From positions 28,292 to 92,291 of the forward strand of contig JACCVY010000006.1 of assembly GCA_013697915.1 (NCBI GenBank): a stretch of DNA of 64,000 nucleotides. The letters are read 5' to 3'. Shown piece after piece: positions 19,683 to 64,000 of the stretch; positions within the stretch are counted from its first letter, which is position 1, and each line of letters starts with the position of its first letter. This stretch comes from Blastocatellia bacterium (GTDB taxonomy: Bacteria; Acidobacteriota; Blastocatellia; Pyrinomonadales; Pyrinomonadaceae). Below the pieces are notes generated by a model. It saw only the letters and a list, made by a program, of their open reading frames with translations, made no database searches and was not told the origin of the DNA. The translations under genes were made by a program, and so were the position numbers.

Positions 19683-19698
19683 TGGCACAGTCGTTGCT
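19683..19698 (+). promoter_or_regulatory. Sigma-54 (RpoN) promoter of the minor pilin operon
   Basis: TGGCACAGTCGTTGCT matches the consensus TGGCAC-N5-TTGCW completely, with GG and GC spaced as the -24/-12 elements require. It lies about 215 bases before the first pseudopilin ATG and on the right strand. NtrC-family activators that could use it are encoded at 25968 and 61894 (PilR). Confidence 0.8.
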
Positions 19699-19912
19699 AA
19701 AGGGATGCTGCCAAGGTCATTGACCTTTCCGTATCAGGCGTTCGAGGGAGTGAATACTGTGAGCAATGAATTGGCAGGAGCAGATACGAGACGATTGGAT
19801 TTGATGGATGATAGTAACGGGCCGAAATAAATGTGACAGCAATTGCTTGATGCCCTATCGCACAGGTCACACCGACCAGTTCGCTCTAGGACGATTTAAT
19901 GGGAGGAGAAGG

Positions 19913-20968
19913 ATGAAGAGGCGCCAGGCGAGCGAGATCTCGAACACCAGTTTACGCCAGCAGCAGTCACGTGGCTTCACGATGCTGCAATTAATAGTCA
20001 CCATCGCCCTGGTGGTCATTATCACGACATTTGGCGCTGTGACCATCACGAAGGCTCGAGCCGGAATTCGGCTCACGAACTCGGCACGCTTGCTAGCGGG
20101 TTATATCGAAAAAGCACGCTCTGACGCCGTTCGACGGCACGGGTTTTCGACGGTCGAGGTGCTCAACACCGCGTCACCGCAAACTACCTATCGCATAACG
20201 ATGGACTTCGATGGCAACGGAATTACAGAGAGCCGCGACTTCAGTCTGGAAGAAGGGGTTAGATTTATTACTCCCGGATCCATGACATTCGATTGGCGAG
20301 GACGAATTATCAGGGAAGTTTCAATCGGAATTTCCTTAATAAGCGATGAAAACCGAAACAGCAACATCGCCGTAACATCTTCAGGCGACGTTACGCTTGA
20401 CAGTATGGTTTTTCAGGATAAGGACATTCCCACAGTAGTGCTAAACAATGGATCTGTTGGGGGCGATGTTGTTCCCGATCCTTACCCAAGTTCGCAGCCG
20501 TCACCCAGCCCAACAAATTCGCCCAGTCCGACGCCTTCGCCCAACCCTTCGCAAAGCCCTACGCCCACGCCCAATCCTTCGACGTCGCCAACTCCTTCGC
20601 CAAGCCCGGGTGCTTCTCCCAGCCCTTCACCAACCCCCTCTCCATCGCCATCGAGTAGCCCCACTCCGTCGCCGACGCCAATCACAGGGCCATGCACAAT
20701 TTCCATCGCACCTAGTCCACTCGAGATCATTAGAAACGGCTCTGGCGGAGCTTACGTGACTATAGGGAATTTCTCGGGCAGCGTAACTATTACGGCAACG
20801 CCCGGCAACTCGGGCGTGATACAGGTATCGCCCACTTCCAAAACTGTTACTGCGACAAGTAATGGTACCGCACAAGCGATTTTTGTCGTCACCGTGAAGA
20901 GTAAGAATGAGAGTGTTCTTTTCAATTCGCCCTGCGGATCTAAAACGCTGAACATCGTCGTAAAGTAA
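19913..20968 (+). CDS. GspH/FimT-type minor pseudopilin with Pro/Ser/Thr-rich linker and C-terminal domain
   Basis: A 351-residue prepilin-like protein. Its leader ends in SRGFTMLQL and is followed by a hydrophobic helix ([19 protein letters not shown]), the class III signal cut by PilD. The mature N-terminus would be FTMLQ, so the near-universal Glu5 is Gln. Then come a FimT-like head (about 60-180, with [13 protein letters not shown]), a linker of about 70 residues made of PSPTPSP-type repeats, and a C-terminal Ig-like domain carrying two cysteines. GGAGGAGAAGG before ATG 19913 fixes the start; the longer track start has no ribosome site. It is the first gene of the four-gene cluster behind the sigma-54 promoter. 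Confidence 0.82.
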
Positions 20969-20974
20969 ATTCAA

Positions 20975-21472
20975 ATGAGACTGTCAGAACACGAGCAACA
21001 CGATCCGCTAACAAGGAATCACGCGGAACTTTCTTCTGCCACTGGTTTCACATTACTGGAAACGTGTATTGCGCTTTTGATCATGCTAATCGTATCTCTT
21101 GGCGTCGCATCTCTATTCGCGTTGTCCGTCGGCAACAATTCGGGCGCTGCTGACCGACAACTATCGATGGCGGTAGCACAGGACCGAATGGAACGACTCC
21201 GCAACGTGATCTTCTCCGATCCCAGTCTGGATGTGACGCCAACGAGTGGCACGACAGAAACAATCACAAACGCCAGACGGAGTTATAGAGTAACAACAGT
21301 TATCACCGCTTCTAACACCGTGAACGGTCAGCCAACGGTGAAGACAATCAGCATTCGTGTAAACCCCCTGGGTGCGGGCCCGTCATGGTCAGGCATAACT
21401 TCGATATTTGGTTCGGTTACGGTTGTGTCGCAACGTTCCAGTCTGTTAACTGGACCCCACCGTGAACTTTAA
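20975..21472 (+). CDS. pilV: PilV/GspI-type minor pilin
   Basis: A 165-residue prepilin with a leader ending in ATGFTLLET, the expected Gly-1/Phe+1/Glu+5 arrangement, and a hydrophobic N-terminal helix (CIALLIMLIVSLGVASLFAL). The rest is a beta-rich head with no cysteine pair. The gene starts 6 bases after the previous stop, so translation is probably coupled. Minor pilins of this type help prime type IV pilus assembly. The second cluster downstream has no counterpart of this gene. Confidence 0.82.
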   Translation: MRLSEHEQHDPLTRNHAELSSATGFTLLETCIALLIMLIVSLGVASLFALSVGNNSGAADRQLSMAVAQDRMERLRNVIFSDPSLDVTPTSGTTETITNARRSYRVTTVITASNTVNGQPTVKTISIRVNPLGAGPSWSGITSIFGSVTVVSQRSSLLTGPHREL

Positions 21473-21482
21473 TTCACTTCTT

Positions 21483-22217
21483 ATGAAGTACAACGACATG
21501 GACAACCGACACTCAGCGGCCAAAGAAGTCGCAGGCTTTTCGATCTTTGAGTTGCTCATCGCAATGACGATTACCTTGGTTCTTATGGGACTGGCGAGCG
21601 CGCTTATTGCTAGCGCCTTCTCAGTGCGCAGCCGCGAGGACCAGCATTCGGATGCGCTGGCTGATGTGCAGCGAGGGCTTAACATTATGTCACGCGAAAT
21701 TGCCAGCTCTGGATTCAATATGTCTAACAACGGAATCGTCACAGCTGATTCCGACGGAAGGTCCATTCGCATTCGCGCCAATTTGAACAAGTACGATACC
21801 AGCGTAAGCGATCTCGCGAGATCTGGCATAAGCGTAGCGGGTGAAGACAAGGGCGAGGACATCAAATACTTTCTCAATGATGGCGGTACTACCAAGTACC
21901 TGGTTCGTTACGATAGGTACGCTCAGCAGGTCCCGGACGATGAAAGAACAAGCGTTCTCGCCAATCGAATCGATTCACTTAAAATTCACTACTTCAATCA
22001 AAAAGTAACCTATACCACTGTGGACTGCGACATCTCCAATCCGTCCCAAACTGAGTTAACAACGACAAATCTCGCTCAGGCCAAATACATTGTTGTCGGC
22101 GCCTGCGTCAGGCTGGAAGCTATCGGCACTCCGGGCTCGACCGTATACCAGCCGGCGCAAAACGTGCTTCTGGTTTCGGATGTGGCGTTGCGCCGGGCCA
22201 ACCTGCGAACATATTGA
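21483..22217 (+). CDS. pilW: PilW-type minor pilin
   Basis: A 244-residue prepilin with leader cleavage site VAGFSIFELL (Glu+5 present), helix IAMTITLVLMGLASALIA, then SREIASSGF, a segment typical of PilW. The C-terminus VLLVSDVALRRANLRTY is shared with the fragment at 23859-24224, where VVRLVSDVAFRN appears. ATG 21483, 11 bases past the pilV stop, gives a normal-length leader; the track start (GTG 21462) overlaps pilV and is possible. It contains two cysteines (DCDIS, GACVR). It probably acts in the same minor-pilin complex as its neighbours. Confidence 0.8.
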   Translation: MKYNDMDNRHSAAKEVAGFSIFELLIAMTITLVLMGLASALIASAFSVRSREDQHSDALADVQRGLNIMSREIASSGFNMSNNGIVTADSDGRSIRIRANLNKYDTSVSDLARSGISVAGEDKGEDIKYFLNDGGTTKYLVRYDRYAQQVPDDERTSVLANRIDSLKIHYFNQKVTYTTVDCDISNPSQTELTTTNLAQAKYIVVGACVRLEAIGTPGSTVYQPAQNVLLVSDVALRRANLRTY

Positions 22218-22234
22218 GTAGTGGAGTAACACTA

Positions 22235-23500
22235 ATGGAATATCAAAACCCGGCGGCAGACGAAAAGAAAAGCGAAAAGGGAGCCGCGCTCATAACTGTC
22301 TTGCTAATGAGCACCATGCTATTGGCAGTTGGGGGCGTGTTAATCATTAGCAGCACAACGACGGCGACGACCGCTATAGATTCGACGGCCGAAATGCAGG
22401 CTTACTATGCGGCTGAGTCAGGATTGCAGGCAGCGACCACCGCATTACGGGGCAATACTACCGCGAGGCCTCCTCTAGATCCCGCCACCACCAAGATCAA
22501 CTTTGCCAAGGCTGTTGATGCTGCGACCTCAAACCTGGCTTCCGACACCTCTGGCTCGGCGAGGCTTTCTGCGTGGCTGCCTTATTCCTACGCGAATGGG
22601 GCTAGTGATTGGCGTGTACCTCTCACTCCCGCCGATCCCACCGCCTACAATCCCCAGGCCGACATCGCTTACAGCGTCTCAATAGCCCGCCTTCCCGGGG
22701 ACACGACGACTGTTCCTATTCGCTTGCTTATCCGGTCCCGGGGCTACGGACCTAAGGGAGCCATTAAACAACTTGAGGCGGTAGTAATGGATCCCGCCTT
22801 TGATTTTCGTGTCCCCGCCTCGGTTCTGCTTAGGGGTGCAACCAACAATCTGCTCGCAAACTTTGTGTTGGGCCCGAGCAATGCAAAAACTCTAACCGGT
22901 CATGACAATGCTCCCACTGGCACGATCGTGTCGGTCTTCGGGGTAACCAAAGAAGAGGATCAAATCCTTGTAGATTCGGCAATCTCCAGCGATGGCACCG
23001 TTGCTAGCCCGAAGACTCAGTTGTTAACTGCCTCAGACCTACCCTGGTGGCTGAATTCACCCGCCGATACGGTTTCATTACTTGACGAGCTTCAAAGCAT
23101 GGCGGAGGACAGATCACGATACTTCGCTGCCACAACAACGGATGTCGGAACTGCGACGAATCCGAAGTTTACCTTCATCAACGGCAATGCTTCGATTGGT
23201 CCCAATGCCGATGGCGCGGGCTTGCTTGTCGTGAAGGGCACGCTAACGCTGAACGGCAATTTCAATTTCTTTGGACTCATCCTGGTCCTTGGCAACGGCA
23301 ACGTTCAACGCACCGGTGGAGGTAGTGGCTTAGTCAAAGGTGCGATGGTGGTTGCCAATGTAACGTCCGGGCAACCCTTCCTGGCTCCGACCTACGACTC
23401 CACCGGTGGTGGCAATCTCAGTGTGATTTACGATTCAGACTGGGTGCGCAAGGCGCTGGATTCGGGTGGTCCGCGCATTGTCAATGTGCGCGAATTTTAG
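22235..23500 (+). CDS. pilX: PilX-type minor pilin-associated protein, copy 1
   Basis: A 421-residue protein with a short basic N-terminus, SEKGAALITVLLMSTMLLAVGG and the AYYAAESGLQAA segment characteristic of PilX N-terminal domains. The large C-terminal part is Ser/Thr/Gly-rich and ends in a beta-solenoid-like region (GLILVLGNGNVQRTGGG). ATG 22235 has GGAG nearby; the track start 22214 overlaps pilW. A close paralogue follows at 24241 (both have TAEMQAYY, FTFVNG/FTFING and GLILVLG motifs). Role: minor component of the pilus tip or assembly complex, by family. Confidence 0.82.
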   Translation: MEYQNPAADEKKSEKGAALITVLLMSTMLLAVGGVLIISSTTTATTAIDSTAEMQAYYAAESGLQAATTALRGNTTARPPLDPATTKINFAKAVDAATSNLASDTSGSARLSAWLPYSYANGASDWRVPLTPADPTAYNPQADIAYSVSIARLPGDTTTVPIRLLIRSRGYGPKGAIKQLEAVVMDPAFDFRVPASVLLRGATNNLLANFVLGPSNAKTLTGHDNAPTGTIVSVFGVTKEEDQILVDSAISSDGTVASPKTQLLTASDLPWWLNSPADTVSLLDELQSMAEDRSRYFAATTTDVGTATNPKFTFINGNASIGPNADGAGLLVVKGTLTLNGNFNFFGLILVLGNGNVQRTGGGSGLVKGAMVVANVTSGQPFLAPTYDSTGGGNLSVIYDSDWVRKALDSGGPRIVNVREF

Positions 23501-23547
23501 CGCCTGGGTAGTTACGTCTGGTGCGATACGCAGTTGCAAGTTCAATT

Positions 23548-23862
23548 ATGAAAGCCCCTCTCACAATTAAGCGATCAGATGGCTCGGCCGGTTTTAGTGT
23601 AATTGAGCTGCTCATCGTGATGAGCATCATCTCGGTGGTTAGCGGTTTCGCATTTATGCAGATCACACGCGCGCACCAGGTGATGGTCAGAGAAAATGCG
23701 GCGCGTGAGTTAGCTAGTAATCTGGAAAAGGCGCGGGTTGATTCTTTGCGACGCCACCCGACGGCTTCAGCGCAGATGGCCCAGGTGGTGCTCATCAATG
23801 CCACCTTCTACTCGGTGGCTGATGCCGACGGGAACGGCGCGCTTGATGCTCCAAAAGTTTAA
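23548..23862 (+). CDS. FimT/GspH-type pseudopilin, N-terminal part only (second cluster)
   Basis: A 104-residue reading frame with prepilin site SAGFSVIELLIVMSII, Glu+5 intact, and a FimT-like stretch (ARELASNLEKARVDSLRRH) ending DADGNGALDAPKV. It stops where the first cluster's GspH homologue continues for another domain. Immediately after the stop, one frame over, the sequence becomes the C-terminal half of a PilW. Adding a single base in the AAAA run at 23853-23856 would join both into one chimeric pilin of about 225 residues. The ATG at 23548 is chosen because the resulting leader is short. Likely non-functional unless frameshifting occurs. Confidence 0.7.
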   Translation: MKAPLTIKRSDGSAGFSVIELLIVMSIISVVSGFAFMQITRAHQVMVRENAARELASNLEKARVDSLRRHPTASAQMAQVVLINATFYSVADADGNGALDAPKV

Positions 23863-24224
23863 TCGTTACTGCTGACTCAGCCGCCAACTCTATTCGCGTA
23901 CGTGCCAATCTAAACAATGACACGGATCTGTCCGACTCAGACGAGGACGTGCGCTTCGTTTTTCAAGGTGCAAATGGGGCAAGCGGGCCCATCGTTCGTG
24001 TTGATAACGCCGCCGGTTCGGTGGTCCTGGCGACAAATATCAATGGTCTGACGATTAGCTATCTGGATATGTCTGGTAACGCCGCCACTGCGGCTACAGC
24101 CGAGCGGGTAAACATTGATGTGCGCGTTGACTTGCCTGCCGAGCCGGGCCAACCAGCTTCAGTAGTGCGCCTCGTCTCCGATGTAGCTTTCAGAAATGGC
24201 CCAATCACATTAAAGCAGTTCTAA
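23859..24224 (+). pseudogene. C-terminal fragment of a PilW-type minor pilin fused out of frame to the FimT fragment
   Basis: The frame reads LIVTADSAANSIRVRANLN, aligning with GIVTADSDGRSIRIRANLN inside the intact PilW at 21483-22217, and continues to VVRLVSDVAFRNGPITLKQF, matching the PilW C-terminus. There is no prepilin leader and no start codon at the join; the track ORF begins at an internal ATG (23949). About 84 N-terminal residues of PilW, all of pilV and the FimT C-terminus are missing relative to cluster 1. This is what an internal deletion in a duplicated operon would leave. Confidence 0.75.
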
Positions 24225-24240
24225 AGTAGCAGGTGATAAA

Positions 24241-25575
24241 ATGAATCCTATTGAACTTAGGGATCGAACAAGTCTGCGAAAGAGCAAGAGTCAGCGAGGG
24301 GCAGCCCTGATCACGGTCTTGATGATATCTGCGCTGCTGCTAACTGCGGGCGGGGCCTTAATACTCACGACGTCACTTGCGGGAACAAACAGTGTAGACG
24401 CGACGGCGGAGATGCAAGCGTATTACGGCGCGGAAGCAGGGATTCAATCTACCCTCAATGTGCTTCGTGGAAACGTGATGCCGAATCCGTTATTCGTCTC
24501 AAATCCGAGCGGCTCTGTCGCGCCACAAAACAAGATCGACTTTACCAAGGCTCTGACATCAACGACGTCTAATCTGGCTTCTGACCCCACAACAGCCGGC
24601 TTTCCCAAGCGGCTTTCCCGCTGGCTTACATATAACTACACTCCGTCGGGAGTCGCTTATCCTGACCGGGTGGCAATCAGCGCCGGTTACAATCCCCTTA
24701 GCGGCATCGCATACAGTATTTCCGTAACTGATCCAGACAACACGCCCCTCGCCAGCCAGGTACCGCTTCGCTTGATCGTAACTTCCACCGGATATGGACC
24801 ACGGGGCACAAGGAAGACTCTATCAACGTTGATGACCGCAAACGGTCTGGACATCAGCGTCCCTGCAGCGCTCGTTCTGCGTGGGCACGATGATGCTGCA
24901 ACAGACGCCACCATAGATTTGGGAAACAGTAACGCCAAGACCTACTCAGGTGTGGACAACGCTGGCGTGGAAGCTACAAAACCATCGTTAGCGGTCAGCG
25001 GACACGATGTAACCACCGTCCAGGCCGCCTACGCCAGCAGACCTGGAACGGTCGCTGATCCCAAGTTCAAAGTTCTGGAGTTACCAAATGATCCGGCTCC
25101 TGCCGGAACTACAACTGTACCAACGCCCTGGTTTCTCAAAACGGCAAATGACGCCCGCGCGTTCCTGGCCGAAGCGGAGACTTTCGCTACAAAGCACGGC
25201 GTCGTAGTCTCATCGCTCAACGGAGCAGCCGGGACAGCCGCAGCGCCACAATTCACCTTTGTAAACGGTGATTGTCACTTGGATAGTGGAGCCGGGCTAC
25301 TGATCGTCCCCGGAACACTGACGACGAGTGGAAACCCGAGTTTTAGCGGATTAATTCTGGTGCTTGGTCAAGGAAGGGTGGTCAAGAGCGGCGGCGGGAA
25401 TGGAGATACTTTGGGCGCAATGATGATTGCAAGATTCGGCAGTACTGGCGGTTTTCTGAACCCAACATTTCAAGTAAGCGGAGGCGGGAACTCTACACTC
25501 CAATACGATTCCACGGCCTACCGGAATTCGGTGGTCCTCTCCGGGCCTGTGGTGTTAGGGGTGGTTGAGAAATAA
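24241..25575 (+). CDS. PilX-type minor pilin-associated protein, copy 2
   Basis: A 444-residue paralogue of the protein at 22235. The N-terminus SQRGAALITVLMISALLLTAGGALIL is followed by AEMQAYYGAEAGIQSTLNVLRGN, the PilX N-terminal signature. The C-terminus again ends in a repetitive glycine-rich region (GLILVLGQGRVVKSGGG). It starts 16 bases after the PilW fragment, with CAGGTGA before the ATG. Although its neighbours are broken, this gene is intact, so the second cluster may still supply one functional protein. No terminator with a clear T tract follows. Confidence 0.82.
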   Translation: MNPIELRDRTSLRKSKSQRGAALITVLMISALLLTAGGALILTTSLAGTNSVDATAEMQAYYGAEAGIQSTLNVLRGNVMPNPLFVSNPSGSVAPQNKIDFTKALTSTTSNLASDPTTAGFPKRLSRWLTYNYTPSGVAYPDRVAISAGYNPLSGIAYSISVTDPDNTPLASQVPLRLIVTSTGYGPRGTRKTLSTLMTANGLDISVPAALVLRGHDDAATDATIDLGNSNAKTYSGVDNAGVEATKPSLAVSGHDVTTVQAAYASRPGTVADPKFKVLELPNDPAPAGTTTVPTPWFLKTANDARAFLAEAETFATKHGVVVSSLNGAAGTAAAPQFTFVNGDCHLDSGAGLLIVPGTLTTSGNPSFSGLILVLGQGRVVKSGGGNGDTLGAMMIARFGSTGGFLNPTFQVSGGGNSTLQYDSTAYRNSVVLSGPVVLGVVEK

Positions 25576-54883: not shown

Positions 54884-55012
54884 CTTTGACCAACGGTGTT
54901 TAGCGCCGTCCGCTGTCAGTCCCAACCCCAGCCCTGCACTAGACTTTTTGAGCAGAATTCGGCGGCCCGTCCCGTCAAACCATTTCTTGGATATCTCAGC
55001 ATCGGGGTACAA

Positions 55013-56812
55013 ATGTCCGCTAAACTAGGCGAAATTCTCGTTCGGGAGAATCTCATCAGCCCGCAGCATCTGCGTGAAGCACTGGACTACCAACGCGAGC
55101 ACGGCGGTCGTTTGGGCTATAATCTTGTCAAACTCGGCCTCGTCTCTGACGACATGATCACGGCTGTTCTGTCGCGGCAGTACGGCATTCCTTCCGTCAA
55201 CCTGGAACTCTTCCAAATCGACGAACAGGTCCTGCACCTCATACCGCAGGAAGTGGCGCAGAAGTATTCTGTGCTACCTCTATCTCGCGTAGGCGCCAGC
55301 CTAACGCTGGCTATGGTGGATCCCACCAACGTGTTTGCCATGGATGACGTCAAGTTCATGACCGGGCTTAACGTCGAGCCAGTGGTAGTCGCGGAAGCAA
55401 GTATCCAACACGCAATCGCCCGTTACTACGGCACCTCCAAAGAAATTGAATTGTCGGCTATCGGCGTCGATGAAGTAGTGTTCGAAGGGGCAAGTGCTAA
55501 AAGCGCCAACGGCGGCATCACTCACGCCGACCTCGTTTCTCTGGACACCATCGACTTTGATACTGATCGCACCGAGGACGTCGAAGTACTCGAAGACAAC
55601 GAAGAGATCGATCTCTCTACACTCTCTCGGATCAGCGAGGACGCTCCGGTTGTCAGATTAGTAAATGTGCTGCTGGTCGATGCGCTTCGTCGCGGAGCAT
55701 CAGACATCCACGTCGAACCTTACGAAAAGGAACTGCGCATCCGCTTCCGTATTGACGGTGTTCTTTACGATGTAATGCGTCCACCACTGAAGATGCGTGA
55801 TGCTCTGATTTCGCGCGTCAAGATCATGGCGAAACTGGACATCTCTGAAAAGCGTCTACCTCAGGATGGTCGCATCAAAATCAAAGTGAAGGTTGATGCG
55901 CGTTCGCGCGAACTCGACTTTCGCGTTTCCACACTGCCCACCTTGTTTGGCGAAAAAGTTGTGCTTCGTCTGTTGGATAAAGAAAACCTGATGCTTGACA
56001 TGACCAAGCTGGGTTTCGAGCCTGGATCGCTGGTGAAATTTCAGCGCAACATATCCAAGCCTTACGGTATGGTGCTGGTAACCGGGCCGACAGGCAGTGG
56101 TAAGACAAATACGCTTTATTCCGCACTGCAATCCCTCAACACGGTTCAGACGAACATTATGACGGCCGAGGATCCTGTCGAATTCAATTTGATGGGAATA
56201 AACCAGGTGCAAATGAAAGAGCAGATCGGTCTGAACTTTGCGGCCGCTCTTCGTTCTTTCCTGCGTCAGGATCCCAACATCATCCTGGTCGGAGAAATTC
56301 GCGACTTTGAAACCGCAGAAATTGCTATCAAAGCAGCATTGACCGGCCATCTAGTGCTTTCCACACTGCACACGAATGATGCTCCCTCCACCATTTCCCG
56401 GCTGATGAACATGGGTATCGAGCCTTTCCTCGTCGCCACCAGCGTCAACCTCATACAAGCCCAACGCCTTATTCGCCGCGTTTGTAAGGACTGCAAGCGT
56501 GAGCACCCCACCCCGCCGGAAGCCCTCATGGAAGTTGGTTTCTCCGCCGAAGATGCCAAGAACCTCAAGACGTATAAAGGCAAGGGTTGTTCGACTTGCA
56601 ACAACACGGGTTACAAAGGTCGCATTGGTCTTTATGAAGTAATGGAAGTTAATGATGACATACGCGAGCTGATCCTAATCGGCGCTTCCTCGCTCGAATT
56701 GAGAAAGAAAGCGATTGAAGACGGAATGATCACCTTGCGCGAATCCGGACTGACTAAGGTTCGTGCCGGCTTAACCACGCTCGACGAAGTTGTTCGCGAG
56801 ACAGTGGCCTAG
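55013..56812 (+). CDS. pilB: Type IV pilus extension ATPase PilB
   Basis: A hexameric cytoplasmic ATPase that drives pilin polymerisation. The 599-residue product has a GspE N-terminal domain (about 1-150; MSAKLGEILVRENLISP) and a catalytic domain with Walker A VTGPTGSGKTNTLYS (about 358), Asp box AEDPVEFNLMG, Walker B ILVGEIRDFETAEIA and His box LSTLHTNDAPSTISRL. The zinc-binding pairs are CKDC and CSTC (about 490-525). I start at ATG 55013, where the family begins; the 39 extra residues of the track ORF have no match to the fold. First gene of pilB-hyp-pilT-pilC. Confidence 0.95.
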   Translation: MSAKLGEILVRENLISPQHLREALDYQREHGGRLGYNLVKLGLVSDDMITAVLSRQYGIPSVNLELFQIDEQVLHLIPQEVAQKYSVLPLSRVGASLTLAMVDPTNVFAMDDVKFMTGLNVEPVVVAEASIQHAIARYYGTSKEIELSAIGVDEVVFEGASAKSANGGITHADLVSLDTIDFDTDRTEDVEVLEDNEEIDLSTLSRISEDAPVVRLVNVLLVDALRRGASDIHVEPYEKELRIRFRIDGVLYDVMRPPLKMRDALISRVKIMAKLDISEKRLPQDGRIKIKVKVDARSRELDFRVSTLPTLFGEKVVLRLLDKENLMLDMTKLGFEPGSLVKFQRNISKPYGMVLVTGPTGSGKTNTLYSALQSLNTVQTNIMTAEDPVEFNLMGINQVQMKEQIGLNFAAALRSFLRQDPNIILVGEIRDFETAEIAIKAALTGHLVLSTLHTNDAPSTISRLMNMGIEPFLVATSVNLIQAQRLIRRVCKDCKREHPTPPEALMEVGFSAEDAKNLKTYKGKGCSTCNNTGYKGRIGLYEVMEVNDDIRELILIGASSLELRKKAIEDGMITLRESGLTKVRAGLTTLDEVVRETVA

Positions 56813-56827
56813 AAAGAAGGAAGAATT

Positions 56828-57565
56828 ATGTTGCGAACAGTAGCGCTCTCACTTCTGATGCTGATTTCAGTAGGCGTAATGCTGCCTTTTGCCAGTTCGA
56901 CGGCGCACGGCATTCGCCAGAGTTCCGTGTCAAATCATCACCGGCGCTATCGACGCCATTCGCGCGCATGGTGGCGACGTCATCGCGCCCGTTTGCGGAT
57001 GCGCCGCGCCGCGGCAATGGCCCACCGCAATGCCCCGCTTGGCCCGGTTCTGATGCTGCCAACAAATAGTCTGCTGCCGACCGCCGCGCTGCCAAAGCTA
57101 CCTGCCGGCTGGGATAAACCTGCCGTCGCCAACAACGGGGAAATCAAATTCAAGAGCGAAAGCACTGCGCCGGCTCCGAGCCAGGCCACACTTTCTGTTA
57201 TTGCTCGCAGCCGCCCAAATCCTGCTTACCTTACGCAACGAGAAGAGCGAAGCATGCTCGCGGGTGTAACCTTCGCTGATTTGCGCCGCACGGTGATCGA
57301 AAAAATGATCAAAGCTGGTGGCTGGGTAGTAAACGATTACCAGCGCCAGGTTAATGGCGCGCGCGTTTTCGTAGTTATCGCACAAACTCCCAGCGACGGA
57401 CGTTCGCCGGAGAAAGCGTGGAACTTCTACTTCGCCGAGATCGACGGAAAAATTTACAGCCTGAGCCTGAATACGCCAGTGCAGTATTCAGATCGATTGG
57501 CTGCCGAAGGTGAAAAGTTCCTTTCCTCGTTGCGCGAAAAAGCTAACGCAACGGACAAACGGTAA
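56828..57565 (+). CDS. Exported Arg-rich hypothetical protein between pilB and pilT
   Basis: A 245-residue protein with a signal peptide (LSLLMLISVGVMLPFASSTAHG). A strikingly basic block of about 35 residues follows (HHRRYRRHSRAWWRRHRARL and onward). Then come a linker and a C-terminal folded domain (about 125-240) with FADLRRTVIEKMIKAGGWVV and NFYFAEIDGKIYSLSL. The start ATG 56828 has GAAGGAAG upstream, 15 bases after the pilB stop. I do not recognise the family. Its place inside the motor operon suggests a pilus-related envelope role, perhaps binding an anionic partner; this is inference. Confidence 0.75.
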   Translation: MLRTVALSLLMLISVGVMLPFASSTAHGIRQSSVSNHHRRYRRHSRAWWRRHRARLRMRRAAAMAHRNAPLGPVLMLPTNSLLPTAALPKLPAGWDKPAVANNGEIKFKSESTAPAPSQATLSVIARSRPNPAYLTQREERSMLAGVTFADLRRTVIEKMIKAGGWVVNDYQRQVNGARVFVVIAQTPSDGRSPEKAWNFYFAEIDGKIYSLSLNTPVQYSDRLAAEGEKFLSSLREKANATDKR

Positions 57566-57621
57566 GTCTGCCAGGGCTGCTGCAACTAACTACACCGACT
57601 TCACTTCAGGAGCTGCCGCTA

Positions 57622-58800
57622 ATGCCATTGAACGATTCAACCCCGCAAATCACCCTCTCGGAACTGCTGCGCAAGCTGTCGGAACTGGGCGGTTCGGATT
57701 TGCACATCACCACAGGCTCGGCGCCTCAAGTCCGCGTTGATGGACATCTTCGATCGCTGGAAGGCTATCGCGAGATGACTGCCGCCGATACTAAGCAGCT
57801 CGCCTACTCGGTGCTCACCGACGCCCAGAAACATCGTTTTGAAGAGAACCTCGAGCTCGATTTTTCTTTTGGTGTGAAGGGCCTCTCTCGCTTTCGCGCC
57901 AACCTCTTCAATCAGAGAGGCGCGGTCGGCGCCGTGTTCCGAGCCATTCCTTACGAAATCAAAGCATTCGAAGACCTTGGCCTGCCGCCTGTCGTCAAAC
58001 AGCTTTGCGATAAACCGCGCGGTTTGATTCTGGTCACGGGACCGACCGGCTCCGGTAAATCAACCACGTTGGCTTCAATGATCGACAAGATCAATCGCGA
58101 TCGACACGAGCATATTTTGACGATCGAAGACCCAATCGAGTTTCTGCATAACCACAAGAATTGTCTGGTGAACCAGAGGGAAGTCAACGCCGATACTCAT
58201 GGGTTTGCAGCCGCACTGCGCACTGCTTTGCGTCAGGATCCGGATATTGTCCTGGTCGGTGAAATGCGCGACTTGGAAACGATTGAGTCGGCGCTGCGCA
58301 TCGCAGAAACTGGACATCTCACACTGGCTACCTTGCACACTAATTCGGCTGCATCCACCATCAACCGCATCATCGATGTTTTCCCGTCGGATCAGCAATC
58401 ACAGATTCGCGCCCAGCTTTCGCTCGTGCTTGAAGGCATTCTTTGCCAAGCGCTGCTGCCGCGCGCCGAAGGGACCGGCCGAGCCATGGCGCTTGAGATA
58501 TTGGTTCCCAACACCGCCATCCGAAACCTGATTCGCGAAGACAAAGTCCATCAAATCTATTCGATGATGCAAACCGGTCAGGACAAGTATGGTATGCAGA
58601 CCTTTAATCAAGCGCTCGCGACTCTCTATCACAAGCGCTCAATCAGCATGGATACAGCCTTGCAACGATCGTCAAACGTCGATGAGTTGAAAGAGCTGAT
58701 CGAACGCGGGTCGGGACTTAATACCGGCAATGGAAATAAACTACATCCGAGTCCCTACGCGCAGGGTCGACCAATCGGAACTAGACCAGCGGTTAGATAA
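57622..58800 (+). CDS. pilT: Type IV pilus retraction ATPase PilT
   Basis: Depolymerises pili for twitching motility and DNA uptake. The 392-residue product shows GGSDLHITTGSAPQVRVDG near the N-terminus, Walker A VTGPTGSGKSTTLAS (about 135), LTIEDPIEFLH, Walker B VLVGEMRDLETIESAL, LATLHTNSAASTINRI and the PilT-specific C-terminal AIRNLIRE motif (about 295). AGGAG precedes ATG 57622. The C-terminal 30 residues are extra and low-complexity. Confidence 0.95.
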   Translation: MPLNDSTPQITLSELLRKLSELGGSDLHITTGSAPQVRVDGHLRSLEGYREMTAADTKQLAYSVLTDAQKHRFEENLELDFSFGVKGLSRFRANLFNQRGAVGAVFRAIPYEIKAFEDLGLPPVVKQLCDKPRGLILVTGPTGSGKSTTLASMIDKINRDRHEHILTIEDPIEFLHNHKNCLVNQREVNADTHGFAAALRTALRQDPDIVLVGEMRDLETIESALRIAETGHLTLATLHTNSAASTINRIIDVFPSDQQSQIRAQLSLVLEGILCQALLPRAEGTGRAMALEILVPNTAIRNLIREDKVHQIYSMMQTGQDKYGMQTFNQALATLYHKRSISMDTALQRSSNVDELKELIERGSGLNTGNGNKLHPSPYAQGRPIGTRPAVR

Positions 58801-58826
58801 ACTGCCTTTCCTGGAGCTTCAACGCT

Positions 58827-60056
58827 ATGCCTACTTACGTATTCAAAGGCCGCAACAAACTAAATGAGACTATTGTCGGTGAACGAGTTGCCGACAACCG
58901 CGATGCGCTGCGACAGATCCTGCGTCGCGAGCAGGTGACGCTCACGTCCGTCAAGGAAAAAGGCCGCGAGATAGGAATTCCGAAGATCGGCGGCCGAAAG
59001 AAAGTTAAGGCCAAGGATCTTTCTATCTTCACGCGTCAGTTTTCAGTGATGATCGACGCCGGTTTGCCGCTGGTCCAGTGTCTGGAGATTCTGGCCCAAC
59101 AGCAGGACAACAAATACTTTCAGCAGATCCTTCTGCAAGTGCGCCAGGATGTTGAGGAAGGCTCGACTCTGTCAGGAGCGATGGCGCGCCACCCGCGCGT
59201 TTTCGATCAACTCTACTCCAACATGGTCGAAGCAGGTGAAACAGGCGGTATTCTCGACTTGATTTTGCAGCGCCTTTCGACCTTCATCGAAAAGATTGTC
59301 AAACTGAAACGCGACGTGATTTCCGCGATGATCTATCCGGCGGCGGTCATACTGTTGGCGGTCGCTGCAGTGGCCGTAATCATGGTCGTCGTAATTCCAC
59401 AGTTTCAGAATATTTTTCTAGGCTTGCTGGGACCAGGCGAACAACTTCCCCTGCCCACACGAATCGTGGTCGGCATCAGTAGTTTTCTTGCCGGCTGGGG
59501 TGGACTCGCCATCCTGGTTGGCATTATCGCGTTTGTGATCGCGTTTCGTTCTTATTATAAAACCGACAACGGACGCAAGATCATTGATCGCCTGACTCTA
59601 AAGCTGCCAATTCTGGGAGACATCATGCGCAAAATCGCAGTTGCGCGATTCTCTCGAACCCTGTCGACGTTGCTCTCTTCCGGAGTGCCCATTCTTCAGT
59701 CGCTTGATATTACCGCTCGCACTGCTGGAAACGTAATCATCGAGGAGGCCATCCACAGCGTGCGCATGGGCGTGGAACGCGGTGAAAATTTTGTGGACCC
59801 GCTCAAGGCCACCGATGTCTTTCCGCACATGGTGGCCCAGATGGTAGGCATTGGTGAGCAGACAGGCGCACTCGATGCGATGCTCGGCAAGATCGCGGAC
59901 TTTTACGAACAGGAAGTTGATGCCGCCATCGCAAACCTGCTGACGCTAATGGAACCTCTCCTGATTGGTTTCCTGGGCGTCACCATCGGTTCAATCGTGA
60001 TTGCGATGTACCTGCCACTATTCACGCTGATCGGAAAGCTTGCCACGGCTCACTAA
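58827..60056 (+). CDS. pilC: Type IV pilus inner-membrane platform protein PilC
   Basis: A polytopic platform coupling PilB/PilT to the fibre. The 409-residue product has two T2SSF domains: FTRQFSVMIDAGLPLVQCLEI (about 70) and FSRTLSTLLSSGVPILQSLDI (about 275), each followed by the EAG/GEQTG motif (NMVEAGETGGILD; MVGIGEQTGALD). Three transmembrane segments are at about 170-195, 215-240 and 375-400. The ATG has GGAG nearby, 26 bases past pilT. A terminator follows. Confidence 0.95.
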   Translation: MPTYVFKGRNKLNETIVGERVADNRDALRQILRREQVTLTSVKEKGREIGIPKIGGRKKVKAKDLSIFTRQFSVMIDAGLPLVQCLEILAQQQDNKYFQQILLQVRQDVEEGSTLSGAMARHPRVFDQLYSNMVEAGETGGILDLILQRLSTFIEKIVKLKRDVISAMIYPAAVILLAVAAVAVIMVVVIPQFQNIFLGLLGPGEQLPLPTRIVVGISSFLAGWGGLAILVGIIAFVIAFRSYYKTDNGRKIIDRLTLKLPILGDIMRKIAVARFSRTLSTLLSSGVPILQSLDITARTAGNVIIEEAIHSVRMGVERGENFVDPLKATDVFPHMVAQMVGIGEQTGALDAMLGKIADFYEQEVDAAIANLLTLMEPLLIGFLGVTIGSIVIAMYLPLFTLIGKLATAH

Positions 60057-60187: not shown

Positions 60188-61840
60188 GTGGGAAACCCGG
60201 AAGAGGCAACAGCAGGGAAGTCTTCGTTGGGCCGCAAATTATGGTGGCTGATTTTTGGCCGTCTGGCCGTCGCGATACTTCTGGTACTGGCGCGGATAAT
60301 TTGGATTTCCGGACGCACTGACGCAGCCTGGACACAGATACTGCCGGCGCTGTTGACCGTGTGCGGTCTTACCGTAGTCTACTCCCTAGCGCATCGAATT
60401 TCGCGCACCCTTTCCTTCCAGGCCCGCCTGCAATTTGCGCTGGACATCATTCTGGTAAGCTGGCTCAACTGGACCACAGACGTTATTCATTCTCCTTATA
60501 TCGCGCTCTACATCGTCATCATCGCGGCTTCGAGTTTGTTTCTTGGGCCACGCGGGGCCATTGTCACCTCGCTTGGTTGCGCAGTCGCTTTTACCTCCAG
60601 CGCACTGGCCGTACTCGCCGGCTATGGCACACATTCCGCACGCATGGTGCTGGAGGTCGGGAGTTCACAAACAGCCCAGACGGTAGGGCTGTTTGATTTG
60701 GCGTTCCTGGTGGTCGGCTTGTTGTCGGCACGCTTGGCTGAACGTCAGTCGCGTTCAGATGTGCGCTTGATTGCCGCAACCCAGTCGCTTGCGAATCTGC
60801 GCGCGCTGCACGAAAGAATTGTGGAGTCGATTCGGTCCGGCGTCGTCACGACCGATCTTGAAGGGCGTATTTACACCTTCAATGCGGCGGCCGAGGAGAT
60901 CACCGGCTACAAGCAACTGGACGTACGCGGTCAGGATGCGTCCATCTTCTTTGGAGAGATTAAGAAAATCATTGCCAGCTCGCTCGAAATTCACAGCACG
61001 CAGGCCAGCCCTCGGTTTGAAGCAGACTGCCTGACGGCTGACGGCCTGAGGTTGCGCCTGGGCTTTACGATCTCGCCGCTCTTTTCCGAGGCGGGCGATA
61101 CGACTGGCACAGTTATTACGTTTCAGGATCTCACGCAAATTCGCGCGCTTGAAGAGACCTCTCGGCGTCAGGACCGCTTGGCTGCGATTGGTCGCATGGC
61201 GGCGTCGATAGCTCACGAGATCCGGAACCCATTAGCGGCAATGCGCGGTTCAATTCAGATGTTGCGCGCAGACATGTCCAGCGACTCCTCGCAAACAGAG
61301 TTAATGGAAATTATCTTGCGCGAGTCTGATCGGCTCAACCGGATCATCAGCGATTTTTTGAGCTATGCGCGGCCGCGTTCAATAATTCAAACCAGGGTCA
61401 ATGTAGGCGAACTGTTGCAACAAACATTCATGCTGTTGCGTCACAGTGCCGAGATCAATCAGGGCCATTTGATCGAAGAACAAGTTCCAGCAGACCCGGC
61501 TTTGGTAAATGCCGATTCCGAACAGCTGCAACAGGTCTTCTGGAATCTTTCTCGCAACGCGCTTCAGGCAATGCCGGCGGGCGGCATCTTACGCGCAACT
61601 GTGCACGAAAATTCCAACGACCGGTTGCGGATTACTTTTTCCGATACCGGACGCGGCATGGCCCCAGAACAGGTCGAACATCTTTTTGAGCCGTTTTCTT
61701 CAACTACCGGAGGCACCGGGCTCGGTCTTTCAATCGTTTATCAAATCATTCGCGATCATGGTGGTACAATCAATGTACGTAGTCGCGAGGGACACGGGAC
61801 GACAATAACGATTGAACTCCCGGCAAGCGAAGGCGACTGA
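60188..61840 (+). CDS. pilS: Sensor histidine kinase PilS (two-component, PAS-containing)
   Basis: A membrane kinase that phosphorylates PilR. The 550-residue product has about six N-terminal transmembrane helices (about 15-185), a PAS domain (about 205-310, with VESIRSGVVTTDLEGRIYTF), a HisKA domain with the phospho-acceptor in ASIAHEIRNPLAAMRGSIQ (about 340) and an HATPase domain with FWNLSRNALQAMP, DTGRGMAPEQVEHLFEPF and GGTGLGLSIVYQI. The start is GTG 60188, followed shortly by the first helix. PilS normally senses pilin level in the membrane. pilR follows after 53 bases. Confidence 0.9.
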   Translation: MGNPEEATAGKSSLGRKLWWLIFGRLAVAILLVLARIIWISGRTDAAWTQILPALLTVCGLTVVYSLAHRISRTLSFQARLQFALDIILVSWLNWTTDVIHSPYIALYIVIIAASSLFLGPRGAIVTSLGCAVAFTSSALAVLAGYGTHSARMVLEVGSSQTAQTVGLFDLAFLVVGLLSARLAERQSRSDVRLIAATQSLANLRALHERIVESIRSGVVTTDLEGRIYTFNAAAEEITGYKQLDVRGQDASIFFGEIKKIIASSLEIHSTQASPRFEADCLTADGLRLRLGFTISPLFSEAGDTTGTVITFQDLTQIRALEETSRRQDRLAAIGRMAASIAHEIRNPLAAMRGSIQMLRADMSSDSSQTELMEIILRESDRLNRIISDFLSYARPRSIIQTRVNVGELLQQTFMLLRHSAEINQGHLIEEQVPADPALVNADSEQLQQVFWNLSRNALQAMPAGGILRATVHENSNDRLRITFSDTGRGMAPEQVEHLFEPFSSTTGGTGLGLSIVYQIIRDHGGTINVRSREGHGTTITIELPASEGD

Positions 61841-61893
61841 AGGCGGGACTTTCGCCCTGGTTTTTTCTGACTTCTGACTTCTATCTTTTCAGC

Positions 61894-63408
61894 ATGGCTA
61901 ACCTGCTAATCGTCGATGATGAACTGGGCATGCGGCAATTCTTGACGCATCTCTTCCAGCGTGAAGGCCATCTCGTTCGAGCCGCTGAAAACGGGCGGCA
62001 GGCGATGGAGCTCCTGCGCACAACGCCGTCTGATCTGGTTATTTCTGACGTGCGCATGCCGGACATGAACGGCATTGAGTTGCTGCGATCAGCCCGTGAG
62101 CTTTTTCCGAATATTGAAGTGGTTCTAATGACGGCTTTTGCCAACGTCGACACTGCAAGGGAAGCCTTCCTGCTTGGTGCCTACGACTTTGTGCAGAAAC
62201 CTTTTGACAACGAGGTGTTGAAGGAAACAGTTACGCGCGCCCTGCAGAAAGTTTCGCTGGTTAAAGAGAAAGAAGCGCTGCTTGAAGAGAACAAAGTTCT
62301 GATTCAGGGACAGCGCACGCGTGGCAAGCTCAACAACATCATTGGCAGTTCTCCGAAAATGCAGGCGCTCTACCAGATGATTGAGACGGTTGCGCAGGTG
62401 CCTTCGACCGTTCTGGTCACCGGCGAATCGGGGACCGGAAAAGAACTGGTTGCTCGCGCAATTCATGACCTCAGCCCGCGGGCCGAGAAGCCCTTCGTTT
62501 CAATTAACTGCGGCGCCTTTACCGAGACCCTGCTCGAGTCGGAATTGTTCGGTTATGTAAAAGGCTCGTTCACCGGCGCAAACACTAATCGGAAAGGGCT
62601 TTTTGAGGCAGCCAACACCGGCACTATTTTCCTCGACGAGATTGGCGAGATGTCTCCGGCGATGCAGGTGAAATTGCTGCGCGTGCTGCAAGAAAGAAAG
62701 CTGCGGCCGGTGGGCGCGACTGATGAAACCACGGTTGACACACGAGTCATCGCTGCCACTAATCGCGATCTTGGCAGCATGGTCAAGGATGGAACTTTTC
62801 GCGAAGACCTCTTTTACCGGATCTCAGTTATTCCAATTGAGCTTCCCTCCTTACGCGAAAGAACGGAAGACATTCGCGGCTTGGCAGAGCATTTTATCGG
62901 GAAGTTTTGCACCGACACAGGACGGGAATTATCGATAAGCGAGAATGCCGTGCGTTTGCTCGAGAGTTATATTTGGCCGGGCAACGTCCGCGAACTGGAG
63001 CACGCAATCGAACGGGCGGTGGCGCTTGAGACAACCGACGCTATTCAATCAGAGCGGCTGCCGGAAAAAATTTCGAACTACAATCCTTATCGCATCGCTG
63101 AAAGTTTTGAATTTCCCGAAGAGGGTGTAAACCTCACTGCCCATTTGGACCAGCTCGAGAAGACCTATGTGCTCGAAGCACTGCGCCGCAAAGTTGGGAA
63201 TCAAACTAACGCCGCCGAACTGCTCGGCCTTTCGGTTCGGTCGCTGCGGCATTTACTCGACAAGCACGGCGTCCGCGGGTTGACGGCGCAGATGCGCGAC
63301 GAGCGTCGTAATTCTGATTCAACGCCGCGGCGCCGCTCTTCCGATCCGGAGCCGCGTCGTCGTGAAGATGACGAATCCGAATTTGCCGCAAGCGCCGGCG
63401 AACCCTGA
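61894..63408 (+). CDS. pilR: Sigma-54-dependent response regulator PilR
   Basis: Activates RpoN-dependent pilin promoters. The 504-residue product has a receiver domain (about 1-120, SDVRMPDMNG), an AAA+ domain (about 145-380) with Walker A GESGTGKELV, the loop GSFTGA in place of the commoner GAFTGA, and DEIGEMSPAMQ. A Fis-type helix-turn-helix (NAAELLGLSVRSLRHLL, about 440) follows. The C-terminal 40 residues are a highly charged Arg/Asp/Glu tail. The gene is followed by a sigma-54-like site. ATG 61894 fits the family. The pairing with pilS is the basis for the name. Confidence 0.9.
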   Translation: MANLLIVDDELGMRQFLTHLFQREGHLVRAAENGRQAMELLRTTPSDLVISDVRMPDMNGIELLRSARELFPNIEVVLMTAFANVDTAREAFLLGAYDFVQKPFDNEVLKETVTRALQKVSLVKEKEALLEENKVLIQGQRTRGKLNNIIGSSPKMQALYQMIETVAQVPSTVLVTGESGTGKELVARAIHDLSPRAEKPFVSINCGAFTETLLESELFGYVKGSFTGANTNRKGLFEAANTGTIFLDEIGEMSPAMQVKLLRVLQERKLRPVGATDETTVDTRVIAATNRDLGSMVKDGTFREDLFYRISVIPIELPSLRERTEDIRGLAEHFIGKFCTDTGRELSISENAVRLLESYIWPGNVRELEHAIERAVALETTDAIQSERLPEKISNYNPYRIAESFEFPEEGVNLTAHLDQLEKTYVLEALRRKVGNQTNAAELLGLSVRSLRHLLDKHGVRGLTAQMRDERRNSDSTPRRRSSDPEPRRREDDESEFAASAGEP

Positions 63409-63567
63409 TATCAGTTAGCCAATCCTTCCAAACCATTCGTCCAATATTGCCCGAAAGCGTCATCATGTTGCTGCCGAAAATTGTCAGCAACGAGAATCCC
63501 AACCGCTAAACCGAAGTCCTTACGCAAAATGAGAGCAATCTTCGAGGGTTCTTTCGAAGTATGTACG

Positions 63568-63583
63568 TGGCACGATCATTGTA
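63568..63583 (+). promoter_or_regulatory. Candidate sigma-54 promoter downstream of pilR
   Basis: TGGCACGATCATTGTA matches TGGCACG-N4-TTGCW except that the -12 GC reads GT. Its position, right after pilSR, is where pilA and its RpoN promoter are found in many type IV pilus loci. The expected gene downstream is interrupted by an IS. Confidence 0.55.
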
Positions 63584-63694
63584 TTTGCGCTATCGGACAT
63601 ATCGCGCTCTTTTGGGACGTGCAACTATATGACAAAGTCCTTTGACGCGAGAAAGCTTAAAAGCTTTAGGTCTTAATGGAGCAAGGATAAAAGA

Positions 63695-63699
63695 AATGG
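63695..63699 (+). other. Start codon of a gene apparently interrupted by the IS
   Basis: ATGGA at 63695 is preceded by AAGGAT at a workable ribosome-site distance, and the IS terminus TGAACTGCACCC begins at the next base. Read through the IS this ORF ends after six codons. The host gene may be the major pilin; the remainder lies outside the window. Confidence 0.35.
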
Positions 63700-64000
63700 A
63701 TGAACTGCACCCTTGACTGACACAAAAAGTTAAGCACATATCCCTACGGGGAAGGGGGCTTAACAATGACCAAGAAGGGGGCAGTGGCCGCCAAGACGGC
63801 GGTGCTCAAACGGCGCACATTCACGCGCGAGTTCAAACTCCAAGTCATTCGCGAGATCGAGGCCGGCAAGACTCAGGCGCAAGTAGCCCGCGAATATCAA
63901 ATCAGCGACAACACGATCTCGAAATGGCGCCGCGAGCTGCGACAATATAAAGAGCGCGCCTTCGCCGGGCGCGGTCACGCTTACACCGATGAAGCCCGCG
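63700..64000 (+). mobile_element. IS3-family insertion sequence, left end; truncated by window edge
   Basis: The terminus TGAACTGCACCC at 63700 has the TGA-rich form of IS3-family ends and lies 66 bases before the OrfA start. The right end, the OrfB reading frame and the target-site duplication are beyond the window. Confidence 0.7.
63766..64000 (+). CDS. IS3-type transposase OrfA (helix-turn-helix protein), 3' truncated
   Basis: Absent from the ORF track because it runs off the window. It reads from ATG 63766 through 78 codons without a stop. It encodes RRTFTREFKLQVIREIEAGK followed by TQAQVAREYQISDNTISKWR, the helix-turn-helix of IS3/IS911 OrfA proteins that binds the IS ends. GGGGAAGGGGG lies upstream. 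OrfB, the DDE catalytic part, is expected beyond base 64000 and is usually made by programmed frameshifting. Confidence 0.85.
   Translation, partial: MTKKGAVAAKTAVLKRRTFTREFKLQVIREIEAGKTQAQVAREYQISDNTISKWRRELRQYKERAFAGRGHAYTDEAR

Follow-up and report, generated by a model that had tools for sequence, protein, structure and literature searches.

A sigma-54 promoter that directly follows pilR, and a gene behind it that gives way to an insertion sequence (IS) almost at its start codon, raise the question of which gene was struck and whether the bacterium has lost its major pilin. The window (the whole 64-kb stretch analysed) is the terminal part of contig C137, positions 28292-92291 of 92291, in a 4.5-Mb draft genome of 271 contigs that is 97.4% complete and may represent a mixed population, its nearest relatives being Pyrinomonadaceae-type acidobacterial genomes, for the most part MAGs. 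The genes run in the order pilB, pilT, pilC, pilS and pilR, followed by the sigma-54 site, a leader, an ATG and the IS (Table 1), with pilS and pilR forming a two-component system (60188..63408) directly upstream of the sigma-54 site. An IS3-type element at the start of a sigma-54-driven gene had been noted in a preliminary description of this DNA, and this is confirmed. Our main reading, to which we give a probability of roughly 85%, is a recent IS3-family insertion two bases past the start of pilA in a conserved pilB-T-C-S-R-pilA locus, and it rests on the left junction, the other copies of the IS and the empty site in relatives.

Table 1 Features of the pil locus and the IS junction in the window.
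Feature	Position	Strand	Basis
pilB	54896-56812	+	Pfam T2SSE, MshEN
Small ORF	between pilB and pilT	+	in the row 54896..60056
pilT	57622-58800	+	Pfam T2SSE
pilC	58827-60056	+	Pfam T2SSF
pilS	60188-61840	+	Pfam 6TM_PilS, HisKA, HATPase
pilR, sigma-54 activator	61894-63408	+	Pfam Response_reg, Sigma54_activat, HTH_8
Putative PilR upstream activating box, CGTCATCATGTTGCTGCCGAAAATTGTCA	63458-63486	+	same motif at same distance in relatives
Sigma-54 promoter, TGGCACGATCATTGT	63568-63582	+	kept before pilA in relatives
Conserved pilA 5' leader	63591-63697	+	match to covariance model R1
Leader outer helix	63602-63606/63646-63650	+	
Leader inner helix	63614-63618/63637-63641	+	
Start codon and two bases (ATG GA) remaining of the pilA coding sequence	63696-63700	+	empty site in relatives
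IS3-family element, left 300 bp of 1,327 bp	63701-64000	+	left end common to C23 and C204

The promoter is present where it was originally placed, its -24/-12 elements are correctly spaced (TGGCAC-N5-TTGT) and relatives keep it ahead of pilA. By number, TGGCAY-N5-TTGY sites in the window (two, vs. 0.64 expected by chance) are not significant, whilst the position and conservation of this one are. The other such site, at 19683-19697, lies ~110 nt upstream of a minor-pilin-like operon (19808-25575), and inside this minor pilin cluster two similar PilX-like open-reading frames (22214-23500 and 24241-25575) suggest a duplication. Some 109-112 nt before the -24 box, a pattern common to the window and several members of its genus, CGTCA(T)...TGCCG.AA.TTGTCA, recurs upstream of pilA in L045, L046, L047, L049, L051 and L102, and its position and content make it a plausible candidate PilR site.

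A 113-nt leader separates the sigma-54 site from the ATG at 63696-63698, which is preceded by two Shine-Dalgarno candidates, GGAGC (63678-63682) and AAGGA (63683-63687); the preliminary description had placed a Shine-Dalgarno sequence and the ATG at 63695, off by one. The left end of the IS (TGAACTGCACCCTTGACTGACAC) does begin two bases past the ATG, as first described, and the split gene together with the IS now reads MDELHP-stop (63696-63716).

Contig and window end together 300 bp into the element, the right part of this copy and any target-site duplication lying beyond the contig, and the full length of 1,327 bp was obtained by joining C204, which carries 1,239 bp, with C19. The element has the two-ORF layout of the IS3 family, an HTH-containing orfA and a DDE integrase-core orfB present as separate open-reading frames (Pfam: OrfA, HTH_Tnp_1, 1e-13; OrfB, rve, 9e-28, and rve/HTH_21), with orfA starting at 63766 and reading the same way as pilA and the pilin promoter. 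Its terminal inverted repeats are imperfect (TGAACTGCACCC / GGGGTTCACTACA) and its length falls within the ~1.2-1.6 kb of the family, so that its designation as IS3-type is borne out and nothing notable sets it apart from other IS3-family elements; we take its ends to be IS150-like. The assembly contains three near-identical left ends vs. two right ends, the same left end occurring on C23 and C204 behind differing upstream flanks, whilst C19 and C95 each begin with the right end. With no more than 4-8 differences between copies over the first 300 bp, the insertion seems recent.

What relatives carry at the empty site identifies the target. In close relatives pilR is followed by a TGGCA(C/T)-N5-TTGT site, a leader of ~100-115 nt and pilA with the prepilin motif GFSLIELLIVVAIIGIIAAIAIPNLLAS, and prepilin coding sequence continues past the start codon in those whose sequence extends far enough; a wider set from a second collection showed the combination of sigma-54 site and prepilin start, no more than 2.5 kb after pilR, at 27 of 34 further loci. 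The closest relative, G004, whose PilR is 95% identical to that of the window, has two tandem pilA genes after pilR and no copy of the IS in its genome. Given that relatives carry pilR, the same promoter and leader, and then intact pilA, frequently as a tandem pair, the gene struck by the IS was pilA, as the preliminary description had supposed from the usual place of this gene after pilSR. Members of the genus commonly carry pilA in tandem, every copy having a sigma-54 promoter and leader to itself (L045:8838-10218, L046:4791-6130, L052:2508-4590), and within a single genome the copies are almost the same at the N-terminus but diverge towards the C-terminus. In Pseudomonas and Geobacter, pilA is under PilSR/RpoN control, and the locus resembles these systems in the adjoining pilS-pilR pair, the -24/-12 promoter, the upstream box and the prepilin with GFSLIELLIVVAIIGIIAAIAIPNLL, here seen in relatives; it differs in that pilA is frequently repeated in tandem, every copy having a separate promoter and a conserved leader, and in that an IS splits one copy in this genome.

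An assembly artefact at the junction, or a junction carried by part of the population only, is conceivable in a draft of 271 contigs in which C137 ends inside a repeated IS, yet the join coincides exactly with the IS end as it occurs on C23 and C204, and over its 300 bases the IS shows copy-specific differences (4 and 6) from these two other copies, which makes an artefact very unlikely. That the IS itself brought the promoter and leader can practically be dismissed, since C23 and C204 carry different, unrelated sequence before the same IS end and the leader precedes intact pilA in genomes without the IS; nothing was found in its favour. An alternative of low probability, somewhat more credible than an artefact, is that IS-IS recombination or an IS-borne deletion parted the pilR side from pilA, the IS copy of C137 then joining C19 or C95 and not C253, the contig that carries a pilA 3' end. 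The right ends on C19 and C95 cannot both pair with known left ends, no pilA sequence adjoins either of these two, the sole right ends in the assembly, and the region preceding the C19 homologue in G004 corresponds here to C31, with no IS there. Synteny with G004 gave no overlap by which C19 could be paired with C23 or C204, and C19 having no matching left partner by synteny, such a rearrangement remains a candidate. However, drafts often lose the right ends of repeated elements, and C23 could pair with either right end (flank bases TCT). As a separate observation, the C19 flank used as query contains a short dispersed repeat (approximately bases 30-140) that occurs in dozens of places in G004, and at L044:246-360.

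The most probable of the rival readings, though itself less likely than not, is that the only pilA copy was split and the major pilin lost, pilin-like genes elsewhere being no replacement. In its favour, an intact close PilA and a second leader are both absent from the 97.4% complete assembly, in which the search for another full-length PilA returned a best match of 34%, on C185; this pilin has a 96% identical orthologue at a separate locus of G004 and was rejected as a displaced pilA. A pilA 3' end is nevertheless assembled: C253 opens 57 nt ahead of a pilA stop codon (C-terminus AMTAASGTAIGN-stop) and continues through the pilA terminator into an ABC permease syntenic with the gene downstream of pilA in G004. 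Its closest counterparts are the G006 pilA genes (87% over ~130 nt), and it occurs once in the assembly. The assembled pilA of this genome consists of the ATG side on C137 and a C-terminus on C253, with an unassembled gap adjoining both pieces. Because C253 begins inside pilA, more pilA, possibly an intact copy, should lie in the gap, and because a single split pilA would break at the IS, whereas C253 breaks inside the gene with no IS sequence, as a collapsed tandem repeat would, tandem near-identical copies are suggested, in keeping with the two pilA copies of each of the sister genomes G004 and G006. At least one further pilA copy, probably in tandem, thus probably lies between the IS and C253, which renders complete loss of the major pilin possible but less probable than not. 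Of the original proposal that the major pilin may be knocked out or displaced, the IS at the start of pilA therefore stands, whilst loss of the pilin is not established.

On the favoured reading, a 1,327-bp orfA/orfB element would recently have transposed into pilA two bases past its start codon, leaving the promoter and leader in place, and the split copy can no longer give pilin from its own start codon, MDELHP being all that it encodes. PilR and sigma-54 would presumably still drive the leader, the transcript now entering the transposase genes, whilst the further pilA copy would occupy the gap before C253. The leader of the window is 69.5-75% identical to those of G004, compared with 87% for the neighbouring pilR DNA, and the first G004 leader shares 69-86% identity with those of more distant members of the genus. 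Given how little the IS copies differ, the leader probably diverged for the most part before the insertion, and the greater divergence of the leader than of pilR from G004 suggests that the pilA hit by the IS may be an unusual copy, already divergent beforehand.

As an IS event the disruption is ordinary, though it struck the start of a main surface-fibre gene in a lineage with few cultured members and possibly placed transposase genes behind a PilR-controlled promoter. By inserting here, the IS exposed a conserved leader of the family's pilin genes, a more novel lead than the disruption and a directly testable one, the covariation behind it being weak. The stretch from promoter to ATG is strongly conserved within the genus, and a covariance model (R1) based on 13 leaders, searched in 162 genomes of the class, gave 29 matches in 26 genomes, all within the family of the window; 27 stand directly before a pilin gene (14 of 16 outside the genus), and the two that do not are the weakest. 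Its outer UCGCGC/GCGCGA and inner CGGC/GCCG helices are kept in 96-98% of cells, and RNAalifold recovered the same helices from a separate alignment of 14 leaders. In the window's copy, two inner pairs have both partners replaced (C-G to G-U and C-G to A-U) and an outer pair is lost (C-A); beyond this there is little covariation, as the helix arms hardly vary, and an RNA role for the leader is therefore plausible only.

Within the window's genus, the Shine-Dalgarno sequence has a complement in the 5' arm (GCUCU/GGAGC). Of 31 leaders, 14 contain the full 5-nt complement, 13 of these belonging to this genus, and the pairing showed no covariation beyond shuffles, so that sequestration of the Shine-Dalgarno sequence across the family was rejected. 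No Rfam covariance model, GEMM included, matched the leaders at the gathering score, and assignment to a known Rfam family was likewise rejected. The cyclic-dinucleotide (GEMM) riboswitches of Geobacter are RNA leaders upstream of extracellular-structure genes, and the pilA leader shares this placement, whilst differing in having no match to GEMM or any other Rfam family. Searches of titles and abstracts in the open-access literature brought up no description of the locus or of an acidobacterial pilA leader, and a conserved RNA leader before the pilin genes of this family is apparently undescribed. We tentatively propose, as a possibility that falls short of an even chance, that it is an undescribed cis-acting RNA controlling the stability or translation of pilin mRNA through the UCGCGC/GCGCGA helix, which in the window's genus might act as a two-state switch via GCUCU/GGAGC. 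Leaders of this kind precede pilA in several of the family's genera, for example at L045, L046 and L081-L093.
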